Origin: Succinispira mobilis DSM 6222
GTDB lineage: Bacteria > Bacillota > Negativicutes > Acidaminococcales > Succinispiraceae
Length of the DNA: 64,000 nt
NCBI RefSeq assembly: GCF_000384135.1
Contig: NZ_KB913028.1
Location: forward strand, 1,883,298 to 1,947,297
Direction: 5' to 3'
This document shows positions 7,590 to 61,792 of the stretch, in pieces. The notes under the pieces were generated by a model. That model saw nothing but the letters and a program-made list of their open reading frames with translations. It was not told where the DNA came from and made no database searches. A program made the translations under genes and the position numbers. Position 1 is the first letter of the stretch. The number at the start of each line of letters is the position of its first letter.

Positions 7590-7979
7590 TTAGCCCATTA
7601 CAACCATAACGTCGCCAGTAGCAACTGCTTGGCCTGCAGAAACACGAACGTCTGCAATTTTACCATCAGCTGGAGCCATGATTTCGTTTTGCATTTTCAT
7701 AGCTTCAAGAATAAGAACTACATCGCCACGTTTAACCGCGTCGCCAGCTTTAACTTTAACTTCTAAAATTTTACCAGGCATTGGAGATGTAATTGTAGCT
7801 GCACCTGCTGCAACTGGAGCTGCTGCTTTTGGAGCTGGAGCTGCTGCTTTAGGAGCTGCTGCTGGAGCTGCAACTGGAGCTGCTGCAACTTTTGGTGCTG
7901 CGACTGGAGCTGCGCCACCTACTTCTTCAACTTGAACTTCATAAACTTGACCATTAACAGTAATATTAAATGCTTTCAT
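7590..7979 (-). CDS. mmdC: Methylmalonyl-CoA decarboxylase gamma subunit (biotin carrier)
   Basis: Biotinyl carrier that shuttles CO2 from the alpha subunit to the membrane beta subunit. 129 aa: a short N-terminal beta segment (1-20), a flexible Ala/Pro-rich linker (about 22-61), then a biotinyl domain with LEAMKMQ, the biotinylated lysine being K95. A longer frame begins 21 bp upstream, but its ATG lies before the GAGGAGG Shine-Dalgarno. The ATG at 7979 is correctly spaced 9 nt after it. Operon order mmdA-mmdD-mmdC-mmdB matches the usual arrangement. It is biotinylated by a ligase not present here. Confidence 0.93.
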   Translation of the reverse strand: MKAFNITVNGQVYEVQVEEVGGAAPVAAPKVAAAPVAAPAAAPKAAAPAPKAAAPVAAGAATITSPMPGKILEVKVKAGDAVKRGDVVLILEAMKMQNEIMAPADGKIADVRVSAGQAVATGDVMVVMG

Positions 7980-8023
7980 TAAATAAATCCTCCTCAACAT
8001 TCTAAACGATGTTTTTTATAAGA

Positions 8024-8365
8024 TTAAAACATTTGGTTACGAGTAGTCACTGCGTCCACACGCGCATTTTGTGCCCAACCTTGAGATGGAACACGACGAA
8101 TGCAAGCGATTTGTGAAGCGCTGTAACCATAAGCTGCTACTGCAGCGGCGATAACGGCGATAACTTCAGTATCATCTTGTGCTTCGACTTCAACTGGAGC
8201 TGCTACTGGAGCTGCTACTGTTTCTGGCTTAGCTGTTTTTTTTTGCGTTGGATCTATAACACTAATCAAGTTGATTATAACACCTAACGCACCTAAAACC
8301 GCAAATACGATAGTCATATTAATTAATGCTATCATCCACGGATTAGTAGTTGCTGGTCCCCCCAT
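8024..8365 (-). CDS. mmdD: Methylmalonyl-CoA decarboxylase delta subunit
   Basis: Small membrane-anchor subunit (OadG-like family) that holds the alpha subunit to the beta subunit. 113 aa: one transmembrane helix at about residues 12-35, a charged Ala/Pro/Val linker with many Glu and Asp (about 45-68), and a C-terminal part resembling the segment that contacts the carboxyltransferase. Shine-Dalgarno GAGGTG is 6 nt upstream of the ATG. It lies between mmdA and mmdC in the operon. Short fast-evolving subunits such as this are recognised mainly by topology and place. No epsilon subunit gene, known from Veillonella, is seen. Confidence 0.85.
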   Translation of the reverse strand: MGGPATTNPWMIALINMTIVFAVLGALGVIINLISVIDPTQKKTAKPETVAAPVAAPVEVEAQDDTEVIAVIAAAVAAYGYSASQIACIRRVPSQGWAQNARVDAVTTRNQMF

Positions 8366-8425
8366 TTAGTTCACCTCTACTTAAATTATTTCTACATCAA
8401 CAACCTGTCACCTAACATCAACTAA

Positions 8426-9952
8426 TTATAGAGGAATGTTACCATGACGTTTTGCTGGACGTACTTCGCGTTTAGATTCTAACATTTTCAACGCGTTAAT
8501 AATAGCTGGACGAGAATCTTTTGGCTCAATAACCATGTCTACAAATCCACGAACTGCAGCTTGGTAAGGAGTTGCAAAGTTTTCTACATACTCAGCAGTT
8601 TTAGCTGCTACATCTGGGTCTTTACGGAAAATAATGTTCGCTGCGCCTGCAGGTCCCATAACCGCAATTTCAGCTGTAGGCCAAGCAATAACTTGGTCTG
8701 CACCCAAATCTTGAGAACACATTGCCAAGTAAGAACCGCCGTAAGCTTTACGTGTAACCAAAGTAATTTTTGGTACAGTTGCTTCAGAATATGCATAAAG
8801 CATTTTCGCACCATGACGGATAATACCACCATATTCTTGACCAACGCCAGGTAAGAAACCAGGAACGTCAACAAGGTTTAAAAGTGGAATATTGAAAGCA
8901 TCACAGAAACGAATGAAGCGAGAAGATTTATCAGATGCATTAATATCTAAGCAACCAGCCATAACTTTTGGTTGATTAGCAATGATACCAACAGTTTGTC
9001 CATCCATACGTGCAAAAGCAGTGATGATGTTTTGTGCAAAGTATTCTTGTGATTCATAGAATTCACCATTATCTACGATGCTACGTATAACATCTTTCAT
9101 GTCATATGCTTGGTTAGAGTTATCAGGTAATAAAGTGTTTAATGCTTCATCAGTACGCATAGCATCATCACCAGTTTCAACAATAGGAGCTGGCTCCATA
9201 TTATTGCTTGGCAAGAAGCTCAACAAGTAACGGATTTGTTTTAAACAATCTTCATCGTTTTCAGTTGCGAAGTGAGCAACACCAGAAGTAGCATTGTGAG
9301 TCATAGCGCCACCAAGTGCTTCTTGAGTTACTTCTTCACCAGTTACAGATTTTACAACTTCTGGACCAGTAATGAACATTTTACTAGTGTTCTTTACCAT
9401 GTAGATGAAGTCAGTTAATGCTGGAGAGTAAACTGCGCCACCTGCTGAAGGACCCATGATTGCAGAAATTTGTGGTACAACACCTGATGCTAAAGTGTTT
9501 TCGAAGAAAATTTTACCATAGCCTGCTAATGCATCAATAGCTTCTTGAATACGTGCTCCACCTGAATCGTTAAGACCGATACATGGTGCGCCCATTTTCA
9601 TAGATAATCTTTGTACTTTAACAATTTTAGCAGCATGCATTTCACCAAGAGAACCACCTTCAACAGTGAAATCTTGTGCAAATACATAAACTAGACGGCC
9701 TTCAACAGTACCGTAACCAGTTGTTACACCTTCGCCAGGAAGTTCTTTCTTTTCCATGCCGAAGTTTGTGCAACGATGTGCCACAAAACGATCCAATTCT
9801 ACAAAGCTACCTGGATCTAATAATACTTCGATTCTTTCACGAGCAGTTAATTTACCACTCTTGTGTTGTTTTTCAACGCGATCAGGACCACCTGCCGCTA
9901 GAATCTTTGCTGCGCGTGTGCGCATTTTCTCAATTTTTGCTTGAGTAGACAA
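8426..9952 (-). CDS. mmdA: Methylmalonyl-CoA decarboxylase alpha subunit (carboxyltransferase)
   Basis: Cytoplasmic carboxyltransferase that moves the carboxyl group of (S)-methylmalonyl-CoA onto biotin, giving propionyl-CoA. 508 aa, with the tandem crotonase-like folds of the acyl-CoA carboxylase beta family. Visible landmarks are KLTARERIE near the N terminus, [23 protein letters not shown] and AYGGSYLAM. The longest frame opens with a TTG that precedes the Shine-Dalgarno. The GGAGG at about 9962 is spaced 9 nt from a second TTG at 9952, giving the family-like N terminus STQAKIEKM, so I place the start there. The same fold occurs in propionyl-CoA carboxylases. The partner subunits B, C and D and the absence of a biotin carboxylase identify a decarboxylase. 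Confidence 0.93.
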
Positions 9953-10026
9953 ATTAGTACACCTCCACAAGTTTTATAACACGACTTATATCTACACCTA
10001 ATGATTTAGGATGTATTCATAATACC

Positions 10027-10062
10027 ATTACAAGAGTGTTGCCCAAGCAGCACTCTTGTAAT
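10027..10062 (-). other. 16-bp hairpin between epimerase and mmdA
   Basis: A near-perfect stem of 16 bp (one G-U pair) with a CCAA loop; the outer arms are ATTACAAGAGTG and CACTCTTGTAAT. There is no T-run on either side. It lies 25 nt past the epimerase stop and 75 nt before the mmdA start. It could be an RNase III site, a stability hairpin or an attenuator. Confidence 0.6.
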
Positions 10063-10087
10063 TTAAGAGTTACAACTTAATTTTAAA

Positions 10088-10495
10088 TTATTTGCGTTCT
10101 GAAAGTTCCATTAGGATACCGCCAGTAGCTTTTGGATGAATGAAAGCGATTGAAGCTGCGCCAGCACCATAACGAGGTTTTTCGTCAATAAGACGAACAC
10201 CTTTTTCTTTAAGTGTTGCTAATGCATTTTCGATATTGTCAACGCGTAATGCAACGTGTTGGATGCCTTCGCCACTTCTTTCGATGTGTTTAGCAATAGG
10301 GCCATCTGGAGAAGTTGATTCTAACAATTCTAATTCGCTATCACCACATGGGAAGAAGCAAACTCTTACTTTTTGTTCTTCAACTACTTCATCACCAGCT
10401 GATTTTAATCCTAGAACTTCTTCATAGAATTTTTTTGCAGCTTCTAAATCTTTTACTGCAATACCAATATGATCTACTCTTGTTACTTTAAACAT
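10088..10495 (-). CDS. mce: Methylmalonyl-CoA epimerase
   Basis: Interconverts the (R)- and (S)-epimers of methylmalonyl-CoA, linking the mutase product to the decarboxylase substrate. 135 aa, one vicinal-oxygen-chelate fold made of two repeats. Candidate metal ligands are His9 (VDHIGIAV), His80 (IQHVALRV) and Glu130 (GILMELSE), as in characterised epimerases. Length is typical. The Shine-Dalgarno GAGGAGG is well placed before the ATG. It sits between meaB and mmdA, in the same order as the reaction sequence. Confidence 0.94.
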   Translation of the reverse strand: MFKVTRVDHIGIAVKDLEAAKKFYEEVLGLKSAGDEVVEEQKVRVCFFPCGDSELELLESTSPDGPIAKHIERSGEGIQHVALRVDNIENALATLKEKGVRLIDEKPRYGAGAASIAFIHPKATGGILMELSERK

Positions 10496-10534
10496 ATTCT
10501 TTACCTCCTCTTATTTTCCAGGTGAATTTATATT

Positions 10535-11479
10535 TTATTTTAATACCTTGGAAACAATCTCATCAACTACCGCATAAGGGTTAGTTTCACGTTCTTGTAG
10601 CTGTTTTACAGTGTTATCAAACCCTGAAGTATTGATAACCTCTTTAGCTATGTAACGATTGATTTGTTCATTAATCATGGCAGAGATTTCTGTTTTGATT
10701 CGCTCTGCTCTTCTTACTGCTAATTCTTTACTTTCACGCATATACACAGCGTGTTCTTCTATAGAATCGACTACTTGAACTACGCCTTGGTTGTCGCTTG
10801 CTATTGTACGATTAATCGGCGGTTTCCAAGCTACACTTTTCGGATTTAATTCAAGCATCATTTGAATTTCAATGTTTAATCTATCAACACCCTCACGATC
10901 GGCTTTGTTGATAGTAAATAAATCGCCAATTTCTAAAATACCAGCTTTGATGGCTTGGATGTCATCTCCCATGCCTGGTATTAATACAACCATTGTAGTA
11001 TCAGCAGTTTTTACAATATCTACTTCTGACTGACCTACACCAACTGTTTCGACAATAACGATATCAATGCCAAAAGCATCCATTAATTTTACAACTTCAG
11101 CAGTTTTTTGCGATAAGCCGCCCAAACTACCACGAGTTGCCATACTTCTTATAAATACACCCTCATCGCTAGAGAGCTCTAACATTCTAATTCGGTCACC
11201 GAGTATTGCGCCGCCAGAGTATGGACTAGTCGGGTCAATAGCTACGATACCAACAGTTTTCCCGCGTTTACGATATTCTTTGGCAATTTTATCTGTAAGT
11301 GTGCTTTTCCCTGCTCCTGGTGGGCCTGTAATACCTAATACATAAGCATTGCCAGTATGCGGATACAACTTACACATTATTTCTACTGCATCTTCTTGTT
11401 CATTTTCCACAGCTGTGATTGCTTTGGATAAAGCCAATCTGGATTTATTCAATACGCCTGCTACGATATCTAACTTCAA
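10535..11479 (-). CDS. meaB: MeaB-type G-protein chaperone of methylmalonyl-CoA mutase
   Basis: GTPase that gates adenosylcobalamin loading and protects or reactivates the mutase. 314 aa, with P-loop GPPGAGKST (52-60), a following TVGIVAIDPTSP stretch, VETVGVGQSE (switch region) and NKADREG (guanine recognition). It belongs to the G3E-related ArgK/MeaB family. The start is a TTG at 11479 preceded by AAGGTGG, 8 nt away. It is separated from the mutase small subunit by 191 bp containing a 17-bp hairpin. Physical linkage to the mutase is typical. Confidence 0.95.
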   Translation of the reverse strand: MKLDIVAGVLNKSRLALSKAITAVENEQEDAVEIMCKLYPHTGNAYVLGITGPPGAGKSTLTDKIAKEYRKRGKTVGIVAIDPTSPYSGGAILGDRIRMLELSSDEGVFIRSMATRGSLGGLSQKTAEVVKLMDAFGIDIVIVETVGVGQSEVDIVKTADTTMVVLIPGMGDDIQAIKAGILEIGDLFTINKADREGVDRLNIEIQMMLELNPKSVAWKPPINRTIASDNQGVVQVVDSIEEHAVYMRESKELAVRRAERIKTEISAMINEQINRYIAKEVINTSGFDNTVKQLQERETNPYAVVDEIVSKVLK

Positions 11480-11513
11480 TCAATACACCACCTTATTTTG
11501 GGTATATACTTAT

Positions 11514-11552
11514 GGATAATAGTTGACAACATTAAGTTGTCAACTATTATCC
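11514..11552 (-). other. 17-bp perfect hairpin before meaB
   Basis: GGATAATAGTTGACAAC, a 5-nt ATTAA loop and the exact complement form a 17-bp stem, 35 nt upstream of the meaB start. No T-run follows on either strand. A second smaller hairpin (AGGGCA...TGCCCT, about 11632-11650) lies nearer the mutase stop. Both are within the presumed operon, so a role in transcript processing or in lowering downstream expression is likely but unproven. Confidence 0.6.
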
Positions 11553-11670
11553 TGTTAATTAAACCTAGGTAGTGACATATGTTAACATAAAGTATTAACC
11601 TTTCCTAACAACTCACCGCGAGTGCAGGGTTAGGGCATATGTCTTGCCCTATATTTTTTTATAGTCAATA

Positions 11671-12060
11671 TTAAGCGTTAGCTTTAATAAATTCTACGAT
11701 ACTTGTAGTTGGAGTTCCTGGTGTAAATACTTCAGATACACCTGCAGCTTTTAAGCCAGCGATATCGCCGTCTGGAATAACGCCACCACCGATTACCAAT
11801 ACGTTGCTCATGCCTTTATCTTTCAAAAGAGCTACAACTTTTGGGAAAAGGGTGTTGTGTGCACCAGATAACAAGCTCAATGCAACAACATTTACGTCTT
11901 CTTGTAATGCTGCTTCAGCGATTTGTTCTGGAGTCAAGCGAATTCCTGTATAAATTACTTCGAAACCTGCATCGCGCAATGCACGTGCTACAACTTTCGC
12001 ACCACGATCATGACCATCAAGACCTGGTTTTGCTACTAATACTCTAATACGTTTTTCCAT
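11671..12060 (-). CDS. Methylmalonyl-CoA mutase, small B12-binding subunit
   Basis: Cobalamin-binding Rossmann-like subunit of the two-chain mutase, about the size of the C-terminal domain of one-chain mutases. 129 aa. The B12 signature DxHxxG is present at residues 15-20 (DGHDRG); His17 should be the lower axial ligand of cobalt. SLLSGAH and GGGVIPDGD supply the rest of the nucleotide-tail pocket. Shine-Dalgarno GGGAGGAG precedes ATG. It follows the large subunit by only 23 bp, so the pair is probably cotranslated. Split mutases of this kind are usual in archaea and several Firmicutes. Confidence 0.95.
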
Positions 12061-12083
12061 TTTTGCTCCTCCCTACTTCTATC

Positions 12084-13721
12084 CTATAGATTAGTGCTTG
12101 CTTTGTATTCGCCGAATACTTTACGCATAACACCACAAATTTCACCTTCAGTAGCATAAGTTTTAACTGCTGCTAAAATTAAAGGCATTAAGTTAACGCT
12201 TTCATCTTTACAACCAGCTTCAAGATCTGCTAATGCTGCTGCAACTGCTGCGTTATCACGTTTAGCTTTTAATGCAGCAATTTTTTGTTTTTGTAGTTCA
12301 CCTACAGATGCATCTACGCGAAGAAGGTTCTTTGGTGCTTCCTCTTCGATTTGGAATTTATTTACACCAACGATAATACGGTCGCCTTTTTCAACGTCCA
12401 TTTGCCATTTGTAAGCACTATCTTGGATTTCTTTTTGGATATAGCCTTTTTCGATTGCTACTGGTGAACCACCAATTTCATCGATTTTAGCGATGTATTC
12501 CCATGCTTCAGCTTCAATTTTGTTAGTCAAAGCTTCTACATAGTAAGAGCCGCCCAATGGATCAACTGTATCAGCTAAGCCACTTTCGTAAGCAACGATT
12601 TGTTGTGTACGAAGAGCAACACGTACTGAATCTTCAGTAGGAAGCGCAAGAGCTTCATCTTTAGAGTTAGTATGTAGTGATTGAGTACCACCCATAACAG
12701 CTGCTGCAGTTTGAAGAGCAACACGTACAATGTTGTTTTCTGGTTGTTGTGCAGTAAGCATTGAACCAGCTGTTTGTGTATGTACACGTAACATCATTGA
12801 TTTGTCTTTTTTCGCTTTGAAACGCTCTTTCATTACTTTAGCCCAGATACGGCGAGAAGCACGGAATTTAGCAACTTCTTCTAGTACGTTGTTATGTGCA
12901 TTCCAGAAGAATGACAAACGACCAGCAAAAGCATCAACATCCATACCAGCTTTAATTGCAGCTTCGCAGTATGCAATACCGTTAGCAATTGTGAATGCGA
13001 TTTCTTGAGATGCTGTAGAACCAGCTTCACGGATGTGGTAACCAGAAATTGAAATTGTATTCCATTGTGGTACATTTTTAGAACAATATTCAAAAATGTT
13101 TGTAATCAAACGCATAGATGGAGCTGGTGGGAATATATAAGTACCACGAGCTGCATATTCTTTAAGAATATCATTTTGGATTGTACCAGTTAATTTTTCA
13201 GCAGAAACACCTTGTTTTTCAGCAACTGCAATGTACATAGAAAGTAGTACAGATGCTGGTGCATTGATAGTCATAGAAGTAGAAACTTTATCTAATGGAA
13301 TGCTGTCGAACAGAATTTCCATGTCTGCTAAAGAGTCAATAGCAACCCCTACTTTACCAACTTCACCTTCAGCTATTGAATCGTCAGAGTCATAACCGAT
13401 TTGAGTTGGAAGGTCAAATGCTACAGAAAGACCAGTACTACCAGATTCTAGTAGGTAACGGTAACGTTTGTTAGATTCTTCTGCAGTTGAGAAACCAGCA
13501 TACATACGCATAGTCCAGAAACGACCACGGTACATAGTAGGTTGAACACCACGAGTAAATGGGTATTGACCTGGGATACCTACTTCGCTTTCGTAATCAA
13601 ACACATTGATATCAAGCGGAGTGTAAAGTCTGTTTGGCTCAAGGTTTTTTCTTTCTGGGAATTTAGCAAGCGATTTTTCCACTTTTGCAGTGTAAGCTTG
13701 CAAGTTAGTTTTTAATGCCAT
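12084..13721 (-). CDS. Methylmalonyl-CoA mutase, large catalytic subunit
   Basis: AdoCbl-dependent TIM-barrel subunit converting succinyl-CoA to (R)-methylmalonyl-CoA. 545 aa from the ATG at 13721, which follows GAGGAGG by 9 nt; a longer frame from 13751 has no ribosome-binding site. Substrate determinants match methylmalonyl- rather than isobutyryl-CoA mutase: Tyr64 in PTMYRGR and Arg192 in [10 protein letters not shown], where isobutyryl-CoA mutases have Phe and Gln. His229 in SGYHIREAG corresponds to the active-site His244 of the Propionibacterium enzyme. It lacks the B12-binding domain, supplied by the next gene. Confidence 0.95.
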
Positions 13722-13868
13722 TCTTAAAATCCTCCTCTGTTTGGTTAACACATATTTTTTTCATGTAATTGCTAATGCAAAAACACGTGGGTTGCCTCAT
13801 CAAATAACGATGAGATTTATAAGCAAAGCCATAAAAGGCTTTAGCAGCATTGTTGGGTTGTGGGCAAA

Positions 13869-15377
13869 CTATTTTATTTTCATGCTACCAGTTTTGTTGA
13901 AGCGAATATGGAAAGACAACGCTTCTTCAAGAATATGTGGTGTATGTGCATGTTTAGTAGCCACAATTGCTCTTTCAAGATAATCTCTCAACATTGGTTG
14001 ATAATCTGGATGAGCTACTTTCTCAATGATTTCTTTAGCGCGATCTACTGGGCATTTGCCACGAAGATCAGCTACACCACGTTCAGAAACAATGATGTCT
14101 ACGTCATGCTCAGTATGATCATGATGTGCAACCATTGGTACTACTGAAGAAATATCGCCATTTTTAGCAACTGAATTTGTAAAGAATACTGTTAAGTAAC
14201 CATTACGTGCATAGTCGCCTGAACCACCGATACCATTCATCATTTTAGTTCCAGTAATATGTGTAGAATTTACGTTACCATAAATATCTACTTCAATTGC
14301 TGTGTTCATAGCGATTACGCCAATCCGACGAGCAACTTCTGGGCTATTAGCAACTTCTTGTGGACGTAGGATAATATATTTTTTATATTTTTCTACGTTT
14401 GCATAGAATTTTTCTAAAGCTTCTGGTGATGGAGATAAAGCTGTACCTGAGCAAACTGTTAATTTGCCAGCATCAATTAAATCAAACATCCCATCTTGTA
14501 CTACTTCTGTGTAAACTGTCAAATCTTTAAAGTCAGAGTTTACAAGACCGTTAATAACTGCGTTAGCAACAGAACCTACGCCAGATTGTAATGGCAACAA
14601 GTTCGCTGGTAAATGACCAGCAGCAACTTCAGCTTTAAAGAATTCAACTAAATTTCTACCCATAGCTTTTGAATCTTCATCAATCGGACCTAATGGACGT
14701 ACTTTGTCAGTAATATCGCAAGGTACAATAGCTACAATTTTAGCTGGGTCACATTTAATATATGTTGTTCCAATAATATCTCCAGGAGCCACTACTGGAA
14801 TTTCTTTACGATTAGGTGGATCCATTGGTACATAAGAATCATGCATGCCTTCTAAAGCCAATGGTTGAGTTACATTCACTTCTACAATAATTTGTTTTGC
14901 AGTTTGTGCATATGAAGATGAGTTCCCCATTGAAGTTGTAGGTACAATATAACCGTCTTCAGTAATTGCGCAAGCTTCAATAATAGCTACATCTACGCCA
15001 CCACCAAAGAACCCATAACGAGACATTTGTGCTACATGGCTAAGATGTAAGTCAGTGTATTTAACTTTACCAGAATTAATAGATTTACGAAGAGTATCAT
15101 TAGTTTGGTAAGGTAAACGTTTGTCAATAGCATTCGCTTCAGTTAACGCACCATCTAGTTCTGGACCTACAGAAGCCCCAGTCCAAAGGTTAATTTTCAT
15201 TGGATTTTTCTTTGCCTTTTCAGCTAAAGCCAATGGCACCGCTTTAGGATAACCTGATGGAGTAAAACCACTAGTAGCTACATTCATACCGTCTTTAATA
15301 AATTCAGCAGCTTGTTCAGCTGACATGATTTTATCATGCAATTTGGCACAACGTACGCGATCACGAATTTCAATCAT
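13869..15377 (-). CDS. Succinyl-CoA:acetate/propionate CoA-transferase
   Basis: Transfers CoA between succinate and acetyl- or propionyl-CoA, so that propionyl-CoA made by the decarboxylase can activate the next succinate without ATP cost. 502 aa, acetyl-CoA hydrolase/transferase family (Cat1, ScpC, AarC). Landmarks are TGASVGPELDG, the TEVVQDG segment whose Glu is the likely catalytic acyl-carrying residue, and GGSGDYARNG towards the C terminus. GGAGG lies 9 nt before the ATG. It is the first gene of the succinate module. The exact acyl donor cannot be read from sequence. A 147-bp gap with two small hairpins separates it from the mutase. Confidence 0.9.
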   Translation of the reverse strand: MIEIRDRVRCAKLHDKIMSAEQAAEFIKDGMNVATSGFTPSGYPKAVPLALAEKAKKNPMKINLWTGASVGPELDGALTEANAIDKRLPYQTNDTLRKSINSGKVKYTDLHLSHVAQMSRYGFFGGGVDVAIIEACAITEDGYIVPTTSMGNSSSYAQTAKQIIVEVNVTQPLALEGMHDSYVPMDPPNRKEIPVVAPGDIIGTTYIKCDPAKIVAIVPCDITDKVRPLGPIDEDSKAMGRNLVEFFKAEVAAGHLPANLLPLQSGVGSVANAVINGLVNSDFKDLTVYTEVVQDGMFDLIDAGKLTVCSGTALSPSPEALEKFYANVEKYKKYIILRPQEVANSPEVARRIGVIAMNTAIEVDIYGNVNSTHITGTKMMNGIGGSGDYARNGYLTVFFTNSVAKNGDISSVVPMVAHHDHTEHDVDIIVSERGVADLRGKCPVDRAKEIIEKVAHPDYQPMLRDYLERAIVATKHAHTPHILEEALSFHIRFNKTGSMKIK

Positions 15378-15437: not shown

Positions 15438-15480
15438 AGGGCAACTAATTAAGTCTACTCAAGAGTTTCTCAACTGTTTA

Positions 15481-15720
15481 GTAGCAATAAAAAATAGACA
15501 CCATTAAACATCTCTTGCCGCCTTAGGCGAAAACTACCTGCTTAAAGTGTCAGTCTACCAGTAACTTAGCCCTTTTGATCAAACTAAGCTGTTGCAAACC
15601 ACTAATCTATCTCGAATCTATACTTTCGTCAAGGCGCTTTCACCTATCAGTCTATACGTTCTTAAATATCTAGCCTCTACCATATCTATATTAAGATTTT
15701 TAGTTAATTTGATTTTCCCT
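15481..15720 (-). promoter_or_regulatory. Candidate structured 5' leader of the succinate module
   Basis: The 634 bp between the CoA-transferase and the pseudouridine synthase hold no convincing gene. On the minus strand, about 15720 to 15490, several stems are possible: ATAGATA with TGTCTAT closing the region, AGGTG/CGCCT with an AAAG loop, CTTAG/CTAAG, and CGCC-TAA-GGCG. The closing 3' strand runs straight into TTTTTTATT at 15500-15492, as a terminator would. This looks like a riboswitch- or attenuator-type leader, but I could not match it to a known class (T-box, lysine, glycine and cobalamin cores are absent). Unverified by folding. Confidence 0.4.
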
Positions 15721-15923
15721 CAAGTTATATATTCTACACCCTTCCGGAAATTCCTGCTTACTTTGTAAAAAATTTACATTTTTTTCGCGTAAATTTGTCA
15801 CCTAACTGTCTAAAAGTTTTCCTAAAGTCATTCTTTTAGAACTTTATCAATAACTGGAATTTTTAATTTCAAACGTCTATAAATACTCTTATAATATACC
15901 ACCTTCAGAAAAAAAAATCAAAT

Positions 15924-16011: not shown

Positions 16012-16905
16012 TCACTTTTGCTTGCTTATAAAAAGCAACATGTCCTTCGGGAAAGGAGTTTTTATTTTTTTCATTTCTCCTGTCTTGTGTTCAATAAATT
16101 TTATTTGTTCAGCATGCAAAGCTTGACCTATAAAAGCAGGATTTTTCGTTCCGTATAGCAGATCTCCCAAAATCGGTAACCCTATATGCGTTAGATGTAC
16201 CCGTATCTGATGGGTTCTTCCTGTTAACAACTCTAGTTCCAAAAGCTTATAATTATCGGTTAATTTTTCTCGCACCTGATACCTTGTTACCGCATTTTTC
16301 CCACCTTCACTGACAATTCGTCTATTCGGACTCTTAGGGTCTTTGGCTATTTTGGCCACAATCTCCCCCTGGTCAGACAGAAGATCTCCTTGTACTATAG
16401 CCACATAAGTACGTTTAACAGCACCTTCTTGTAACTGTAATTCATATAATTTTTTAGCCTGCACATTTTTAGCAATCATAACACAGCCAGTAGTGTCTCG
16501 GTCTAGGCGATGTATCGCATGCAATTGCACTTCGGGCTGTTTTTGATATTTATTTGCTAAAAAATTTAGCAGAGTTCCATGCGTCGTTCTCCCCGCAGGA
16601 TGGACCAGGATACCAGCTGGTTTGTTAACAATTAACAAGTTTGAGTCTTCATATAATACTTCTATCTCAAGTTCACTATCTTGTGCTAATAAATTATTTT
16701 TTTCTCGCAACACAATAACCTTAAGACTATCGCCCGCGCGAACTTTTCTTTCAACATTTGTAACTTTGCCGTTTATCAATAAGCCACGCGCCCTTGTAAG
16801 TTTTTGAAAATTTCGGGCTGAGATCTTCAAAACACTACGCACATACTCTTTTACCGTCAAACCATTAAACTGGGCTTCAATAAAATACTCTTCAAATTCA
16901 CGCAT
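16012..16905 (-). CDS. RluA/RluD-family RNA pseudouridine synthase
   Basis: Isomerises specific uridines of rRNA or tRNA to pseudouridine. 297 aa: an S4-like RNA-binding segment at about residues 15-68, then the catalytic domain with HRLDRDTTG at 132-140 (Asp135 is the expected catalytic residue), NKPAGILVHP and the RTHQIRVH motif. Size and layout match RluD/YlyB-type proteins; the target site cannot be told from sequence. Single gene with its own candidate promoter (-10 TATAAT at 16943-16938) and terminator. GGAG precedes the ATG. Confidence 0.93.
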   Translation of the reverse strand: MREFEEYFIEAQFNGLTVKEYVRSVLKISARNFQKLTRARGLLINGKVTNVERKVRAGDSLKVIVLREKNNLLAQDSELEIEVLYEDSNLLIVNKPAGILVHPAGRTTHGTLLNFLANKYQKQPEVQLHAIHRLDRDTTGCVMIAKNVQAKKLYELQLQEGAVKRTYVAIVQGDLLSDQGEIVAKIAKDPKSPNRRIVSEGGKNAVTRYQVREKLTDNYKLLELELLTGRTHQIRVHLTHIGLPILGDLLYGTKNPAFIGQALHAEQIKFIEHKTGEMKKIKTPFPKDMLLFISKQK

Positions 16906-54392: not shown

Positions 54393-54426
54393 ATAAAAAA
54401 GCCTACCCTCCCTAATGGGACGATAG
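54393..54426 (-). terminator. Leader terminator of the trp operon
   Basis: CTATCGTCCC and GGGAGGGTAG (10 bp with one mismatch and one G-U pair) around an ATTA loop, then GCTTTTTTATTTT. It is the terminator arm of the T-box; the T-box sequence lies 14 nt before it and can pair with its 5' side in the antiterminator. Confidence 0.85.
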
Positions 54427-54719
54427 ACTAAATAGCCTTCGTGTTGCCACCCAAATTCAAAGACATCTTTTGACATGTCTTCCTCTAATACAGGTACGCA
54501 ACTTTCTTTATGCACAGGTACGCAGCACAAGTAAAGCATCAATACCCTGTTCTTTAACGCAGATCATACGGCTTGCAACTACTCTAGTAAAACTATTTCA
54601 TCTTGCTCCTCACAAACCCATTCATTTGTAACGCATGTGTCAGTCTCACACCAATAACCGACTCTCTGTAACACCGTCTTACAAACTACTTACTTTTGCT
54701 CAAAGGATTTATTTTTATT
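54400..54719 (-). promoter_or_regulatory. T-box leader of the trp operon
   Basis: A 320-nt leader between a consensus promoter and trpE. GGGTGGCAACACG at 54452-54440 is a T-box core with slight deviation from GGGTGGNACCGCG. A stem I with AGAGAGTCGG near its base is visible, and the specifier region contains a TGG tryptophan codon (54620-54618, GAATGGG). Uncharged tRNA-Trp should stabilise the antiterminator and turn the operon on. An 11-nt sequence ACAGGTACGCA occurs twice (54490-54500 and 54514-54524, plus-strand reading). Confidence 0.9.
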
Positions 54720-61404: not shown

Positions 61405-61437
61405 AGTACACCTTCTATTACAAAATAATATAATAAT

Positions 61438-61792
61438 TATGAGCACTCATTAAGCCGAGTTCTGTTCACCTTACGGCGCGACAATCATCTATCTGGACTA
61501 TTAGTTGCCTAATAGTTCTAGCGACACAACCCGAGAGGATCAGCGAGCAACATCATCCCTCTCCTATTTGGTCTTGCTCCGAATGGGGTTTACCTAGCCA
61601 GTTGGTCACCCAACTGCTGGTGCGCTCTTACCGCACCGTTCCACCCTTACCGATTTAATATCGGCGGTACACATTTCTGTGGCACTTTCCCTAAGATTAC
61701 TCTCGCTGGGCGTTACCCAGCATTCTGCTCTGTGGAGCTCGGACTTTCCTCGACTGGCCTTATACCAACCGCGATTGTCTTTTGTACTCACA
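61438..61792 (-). ncRNA. rnpB: RNase P RNA (type A)
   Basis: Catalytic RNA of tRNA 5' maturation. Diagnostic minus-strand blocks in order: GAGGAAAGTCCGAGCTCC, CTGGGTAACGCCCAG, GGTGCGGTAAGAGCGCACC, TAAACCCCATTCGGAGCAAG (P4-side region) with CCAAATAGG, and AGAACTCGGCTTA near the 3' end. The terminal helix P1 is TGAGTAC/GTGCTCA, which sets the ends within a few bases. About 355 nt, normal for type A. Confidence 0.96.

Follow-up and report, generated by a model that had tools for sequence, protein, structure and literature searches.

The gap upstream of scpC

We analyzed a 64,000-nucleotide stretch of DNA from Succinispira mobilis DSM 6222 (the window). A gap of 634 bp separates the gene for an RluA-family pseudouridine synthase (ending at 16012) from scpC (starting at 15377), and both genes are on the minus strand. 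The genes behind scpC (Table 1) encode what we take to be the pathway from succinate to propionate with a Na+ pump; the NCBIfam scores of MmdA and MmdC were under their cut-offs. A scan for open reading frames of at least 60 aa found none in the gap. An earlier note, made from the sequence alone, had described about 630 bp without a gene here and had proposed a structured leader of no known class at 15438-15900. The gap is as described, and the interval encloses the RNA element that we report. The scpC start is at +111 after the element.

Table 1. Features of the scpC leader and of the genes behind it (positions in the window)
Feature	Position	Strand	Sequence, score or basis
Predicted sigma-H-type promoter	15731..15755	-	AGGA 15755-15752, 17-nt spacer, GAAT 15734-15731; from sequence
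Whole conserved RNA element (model match)	15488..15666	-	R2 85.7 bits, E 1.3e-19; R3 69.2 bits, E 1.1e-13 (one genome)
Hairpin A	15620..15657	-	lower stem GUAU 15657-15654 / GUAU 15623-15620; upper hairpin AGG/CCU; covariation
Hairpin A, 3x3 internal loop	AGA 15653-15651 / AAA 15626-15624	-	conserved RGA/RAA
Hairpin B	15551..15601	-	P1, 8 bp, UGGUUUGC 15601-15594 / GUAGACUG 15558-15551; covariation
Hairpin B, P2 (variable, enclosed by P1)	15589-15584 / 15569-15564	-	
Intrinsic terminator	15489..15551	-	5' arm from 15551/15550, 3' arm to 15497, U tract 15494-15489
Ribosome-binding site and scpC start codon	15375..15393	-	AAGGAGGAG; from sequence; ~110 nt past the terminator
scpC, succinyl-CoA:acetate CoA-transferase (first controlled gene in the proposed scheme)	13869..15377	-	NCBIfam NF053853, 748 bits (cut-off 500)
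Methylmalonyl-CoA mutase subunits, MeaB, epimerase, methylmalonyl-CoA decarboxylase MmdA and MmdC-like, downstream of scpC	7590..13751	-	NCBIfam matches

Two hairpins and a terminator conserved with compensatory changes

The starting point was a side-by-side comparison of the regions upstream of the closest scpC orthologues. Six of these upstream sequences, including that of the window, share an 8-bp helix (P1) followed directly by a terminator. In a plain MAFFT alignment of the six, which was not fitted to structure, all 48 cells of P1 were paired, and there were changes on one side as well as on both. A covariance model (R1) then matched in 16 of 63 genomes of the window's order. Although no gene information had entered the search, each match that scored above 30 bits was immediately upstream of the orthologous CoA-transferase gene. 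The newly added members revealed a second hairpin, upstream of the first. With 12 sequences, again in an alignment not fitted to the model, P1 was paired in 94 of 96 cells. The terminator pairs of R1 were offset by two columns (P1 was correct), and models R2 and R3 were used instead; R2 reached distant members across the Negativicutes.

The consensus consists of hairpin A, hairpin B and the terminator. Hairpin A has a lower stem, a 3x3 internal loop (RGA/RAA), a short CAG/CUG-type helix and a variable upper hairpin. The terminator has the form GCACYU..RGGUGY followed by a U tract. We found that these helices are maintained by compensatory changes. Among 26 loci, 94.3% of cells pair, and there are 79 double-sided cells compared to 21.6 +/- 6.1 in shuffles (0/500). 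Sliding the structure along the same loci reduced pairing to 32-45%. Among 31 loci outside model building, which were themselves found by R3, 91.6% of cells pair and there are 95 double-sided cells compared to 28.6 +/- 6.4 in shuffles (0/500). Such cell counts are inflated, as some related genera are represented by several loci. The model itself guided alignments A6 and A8, which therefore lean towards it; the unfitted alignments of six and 12 sequences are free of that bias.

The lower stem of hairpin A is paired in 92.9-95.5% of cells, with double-sided changes in every pair. Pairing is 96.4% (26 loci) and 92.3% (31 loci) for P1, and 94.9% and 96.1%, respectively, for the terminator helix. 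Within variable surrounding helices, the RGA/RAA internal loop has its G in 54 of 54 and its A in 52 of 54 members with letters at these positions. A tract of at least five U residues ends the terminator stem in all 57 members, and the median energy of the terminator hairpin is -19.7 kcal/mol (57 members; -15.0 kcal/mol in the window). The element is thus a conserved cis-regulatory RNA with compensatory changes, a terminator and a fixed position relative to genes. The earlier note had staked its proposal on covariation among relatives, which is strong here (79-95 double-sided cells versus 22-29 in shuffles). Its structured, terminator-bearing leader is borne out by the covarying helices and the U tract, and the U tract that it placed directly after a hairpin is there (TTTTTT, 15494-15489). 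The inner stems that it took as defining were wrong in detail, the conserved fold being hairpins A and B and the terminator.

Folding energies were only mildly better than those of shuffled sequences (z of -0.84 for the whole gap, -1.38 for the 347-nt leader and -2.4 for the 210-nt core), so thermodynamics alone is insufficient to establish a structured RNA. The lowest-energy fold for the window (-54.3 kcal/mol, versus -46.0 kcal/mol for the consensus fold) is a long rod of the type that had been proposed. The two strands of the proposed closing stem, ATAGATA (15689-15683) and TGTCTAT (15500-15494), are present, and the 3' arm of the terminator does pair upstream in this fold. However, this stem is not part of the conserved element, in which the 3' arm covaries with 15550-15546. 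In folding models, the ATAGATA/TGTCTAT pairing is a possible species-specific alternative. The TATAGAYT-like repeats also held up in part: TATAGA is enriched in this leader (3 copies compared to 0.24 expected; 0/2000), but it is not conserved, since only 1 of 57 aligned elements has at least two copies. Two of the three copies are both arms of hairpin A. We also considered 6S RNA because of the rod-like fold and rejected it; the genome has its own 6S RNA match elsewhere (RF00013, 87.7 bits, C1:1550785-1550965).

Distribution and downstream genes

Of 380 Negativicutes genomes searched with R3 without gene context, 55 were found to contain the element, although some of the weakest matches (E above about 1e-3) are due to chance. 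The same model in 398 Bacillota genomes gave the window's own element and one borderline match (E 0.0057). Several weak R3 matches (L182, L185-L188 and L158) and a second R2 match in the S. mobilis genome (L147) look like chance or are doubtful.

We identified the first downstream gene of 58 elements with tblastn and NCBIfam/Pfam. In 56 of the 58 it belongs to one functional set, and two are unassigned. The gene encodes ScpC, the succinyl-CoA:acetate CoA-transferase, in 42 cases, methylmalonyl-CoA mutase in four, AtpI of the ATP synthase operon in four, the alpha subunit of methylmalonyl-CoA decarboxylase in three, the beta subunit of a Na+-transporting decarboxylase in two, and an acetate uptake transporter in one. 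The upstream neighbours vary and include the RluA-family synthase (in the window), [FeFe] hydrogenase, Rex and WecB. Varied genes on one side and the same set on the other indicate that the element is tied to the downstream gene. As expected of a regulon, several genomes have the element twice or three times, each time before another member of the set.

These positions bear on the possibility that the leader is constitutive, or yields a trans-acting small RNA. In either case the sigma-H-type promoter would yield a short terminated RNA, and scpC would be expressed by leakage or from another promoter. The very stable terminator, the U tract in all members and the compact consensus structure are consistent with such an RNA. 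However, the same few genes follow the element in the same place and orientation while the upstream genes change, and in the window we recognized no promoter-like site on the coding strand from the terminator to the start codon. We consider this explanation quite improbable.

The element is not universal. It was undetected in most genomes of the window's own order, and the Selenomonas-type regions upstream of scpC (L023-L050) lack it and have a different conserved, palindrome-rich sequence (beginning ATAATTACTACATAGTAGTACGATAA), which from its appearance is possibly a DNA operator array. The R2 and R3 searches found no copy at the ATP synthase operon of the S. mobilis genome itself (AtpB at C1:133052-133633). 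In part of the Acidaminococcaceae (L016, L017, L018, L104, L106 and L110), a conserved GGTAAAATCTT directly follows the U tract.

Predicted promoter, proposed mode of control and candidate signals

A sigma-H-type promoter is predicted upstream of the element, and transcription probably starts at ~15724. Sigma-H promoters of another member of the Negativicutes, Sporomusa sphaeroides, have been mapped by dRNA-seq and have AGGA and GAAT spaced by 17-18 nt; SigH of this organism serves carbon and energy genes (PMC12456013). Both motifs are present in the window at a spacing of 17 nt, and the genome encodes its own SigH (349 bits; cut-off 294.8). AGGA-N16..18-GAAT occurs upstream of 32 of 57 elements compared to 1.3 expected in shuffles. 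A second copy of the scpC promoter block (60 bp, 85% identity) lies elsewhere in the genome (C1:65406-65466, L002) and precedes a gene for an SLH-domain, OmpM-like porin. Its presence at both genes suggests a common sigma-H-type promoter for highly expressed genes. The DNA similarity between this leader and those of relatives is mostly in the promoter block and the ribosome-binding site and is uninformative about the element. A transcription start downstream of 15480, which the earlier note had named as evidence against its leader, is not indicated; the start deduced from the promoter lies upstream.

An intrinsic terminator thus lies between the predicted promoter and the gene, as in transcription attenuators. 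On balance, we favor the view that the element acts in cis as a leader for transcription attenuation and is most likely a riboswitch belonging to no described class. In this scheme, transcription would begin at ~15724 and the nascent RNA would form hairpins A and B, with the near-invariant RGA/RAA loop as the likely recognition site. Polymerase would then meet the intrinsic terminator ~110 nt ahead of scpC. The hairpin A/B domain would be the binding site of a signal tied to succinate/propionate metabolism or to Na+-coupled energy metabolism, and binding would set the readthrough of polymerase into the succinate-to-propionate operon. In relatives, the same control would act on methylmalonyl-CoA mutase, the Na+-pump decarboxylase, ATP synthase and the acetate transporter. 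We infer the attenuation mode, the sensing of a small molecule or ion, the identity of the signal and the sign of the response.

In folding models the terminator is highly probable, but P1 and hairpin A have low probabilities (medians of 0.21 and 0.12). The low values indicate that protein or tertiary contacts may be needed. These predictions fit a leader that would be off by default and whose A/B domain would be stabilized by a ligand or a protein. They also bear on a protein-dependent attenuator, in which an RNA-binding protein would recognize hairpin A or B and control the terminator, and the RNA would bind no metabolite. Besides the weak single-sequence folding of A and B, the restriction of the element to one bacterial class points in this direction, and so does its best-conserved part, a small purine internal loop in a variable helix, as in many protein-binding sites. 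However, we found no candidate regulator gene beside the element, and two conserved hairpins followed by a terminator are also the usual layout of a riboswitch. We hold a protein-dependent attenuator to be unlikely.

Attenuation by a leader peptide was suggested by an AUGGA or AUGGC that, in 26 of 57 members, overlaps the element at its start. It is absent from the other 31, however, and by eye we see no relation among the reading frames or among the peptides. In addition, the AUG stems from the variable closing pair of the lower stem, which covaries as RNA. We find this explanation scarcely credible.

An antiterminator would be expected of a transcription attenuator. The linker between hairpins A and B, often ACAAAC, is complementary to the GUUUGU arm of the terminator in many members. 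However, the linker and the 5' arm of the terminator of the same member did not pair better than swapped partners (partner-swap test, 673/5000, not significant). In one genus (L134, L136, L137 and L139), GGACAG of hairpin A is perfectly complementary to CUGUCC in the A-B linker; this possible alternative pairing would unfold hairpin A.

The statement that no known class fits stands: Rfam 15 had no fitting family in the window or its relatives. In the window, no family matched the element above its gathering score, and a permissive scan (E up to 10) gave only weak, unrelated matches (freshwater-2 and mir-255, E near 1 or higher). Related loci scanned at E up to 1-3 had no family convincingly overlapping the element. 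We found no description of an RNA with this gene association in the text of the open literature that we searched, and an earlier description elsewhere is possible. The main text of a 2024 survey of 50 genomes does not mention the association (PMC11109978).

The closest functional parallel, by analogy, is the Na+-I riboswitch (DUF1646 motif), which also precedes genes for ATP synthase and Na+-pump decarboxylases (oxaloacetate decarboxylase) and also acts on an intrinsic terminator (PMC9337991). These likenesses would be expected if the element were a diverged member of this or another catalogued class, beyond the reach of Rfam. However, neither DUF1646 nor any other model gave a convincing overlapping match in the scans described above, and the architectures differ: the published conserved clusters of Na+-I are at the base of P1 and the loop of P2, whereas here there is an internal-loop hairpin next to a P1/P2 hairpin. 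The gene set of the element, unlike that of Na+-I, centres on succinyl-CoA:acetate CoA-transferase and methylmalonyl-CoA mutase. Membership in a catalogued class seems to us very doubtful.

Other orphan RNAs are more distant. The ldh2 and gltD motifs, which are riboswitch candidates, are also cis-regulatory RNAs of Negativicutes before metabolic genes, but the genes are others, control is by hiding the ribosome-binding site and not by a terminator, and ldh2 is a three-stem junction (PMC8632094). The sucC-II motif precedes a succinyl-CoA enzyme gene, but it is found only in Leptospira and before a different gene (PMC8632094). The SLH motif, a riboswitch candidate partly in Negativicutes, precedes S-layer-homology genes and is set apart by gene association alone (PMC6429828). 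T-box leaders (RF00230) also carry terminators, and one is present elsewhere in the window (54413-54712, minus strand), but the scpC leader has no T-box match. A further T-box leader, below the gathering score, is in L157 (1805-2000). The window also contains a class A RNase P RNA (61436-61790, minus strand, 292 bits).

The downstream gene set extends the candidate ligands of the favored riboswitch beyond metabolites of the pathway, to a signal that would also concern ATP synthase and Na+ pumps. Na+ is a candidate that fits the Na+-pump decarboxylases, the ATP synthase and the AtpE described below. An acid or acyl-CoA of the succinate branch is another and fits ScpC, the mutase and the acetate transporter. 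More tentatively, this could be a new riboswitch class for succinate, methylmalonyl-CoA, propionyl-CoA or Na+, through which Negativicutes would coordinate ATP synthase and the Na+-pumping decarboxylation pathway. Provided that the element is a riboswitch, it would bind either Na+, recognized by an unrelated fold, or else a central dicarboxylate or an acyl-CoA, and for these latter two we know of no riboswitch.

The earlier note had claimed less than we find, an RNA element that is specific to one bacterial class, is assigned to no family and has a coherent regulon in energy metabolism; the note was wrong in most structural details and right in its intuition. Decarboxylation of succinate to propionate with a Na+ pump is the livelihood of some gut and sediment bacteria, and the literature that we searched held no answer to how this Na+-coupled decarboxylation is regulated. 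The element ties the CoA-transferase, the mutase, the decarboxylase pump and ATP synthase together and offers a concrete, testable handle on this regulation.

Two further features were seen beside these genes. In the ATP synthase operon behind one element (L183), AtpE has, by eye, an acidic residue at the position of a conserved Gln, and its helix 2 contains an ES pair; these residues are at the expected location of the Na+ site, and the protein is possibly a c subunit of the two-carboxylate Na+ type. Between the terminator and the scpC start in the window there is a perfect, operator-like palindrome (TAGTGT-TAT-ACACTA, 15437-15423), which might be a DNA-binding site for a repressor.
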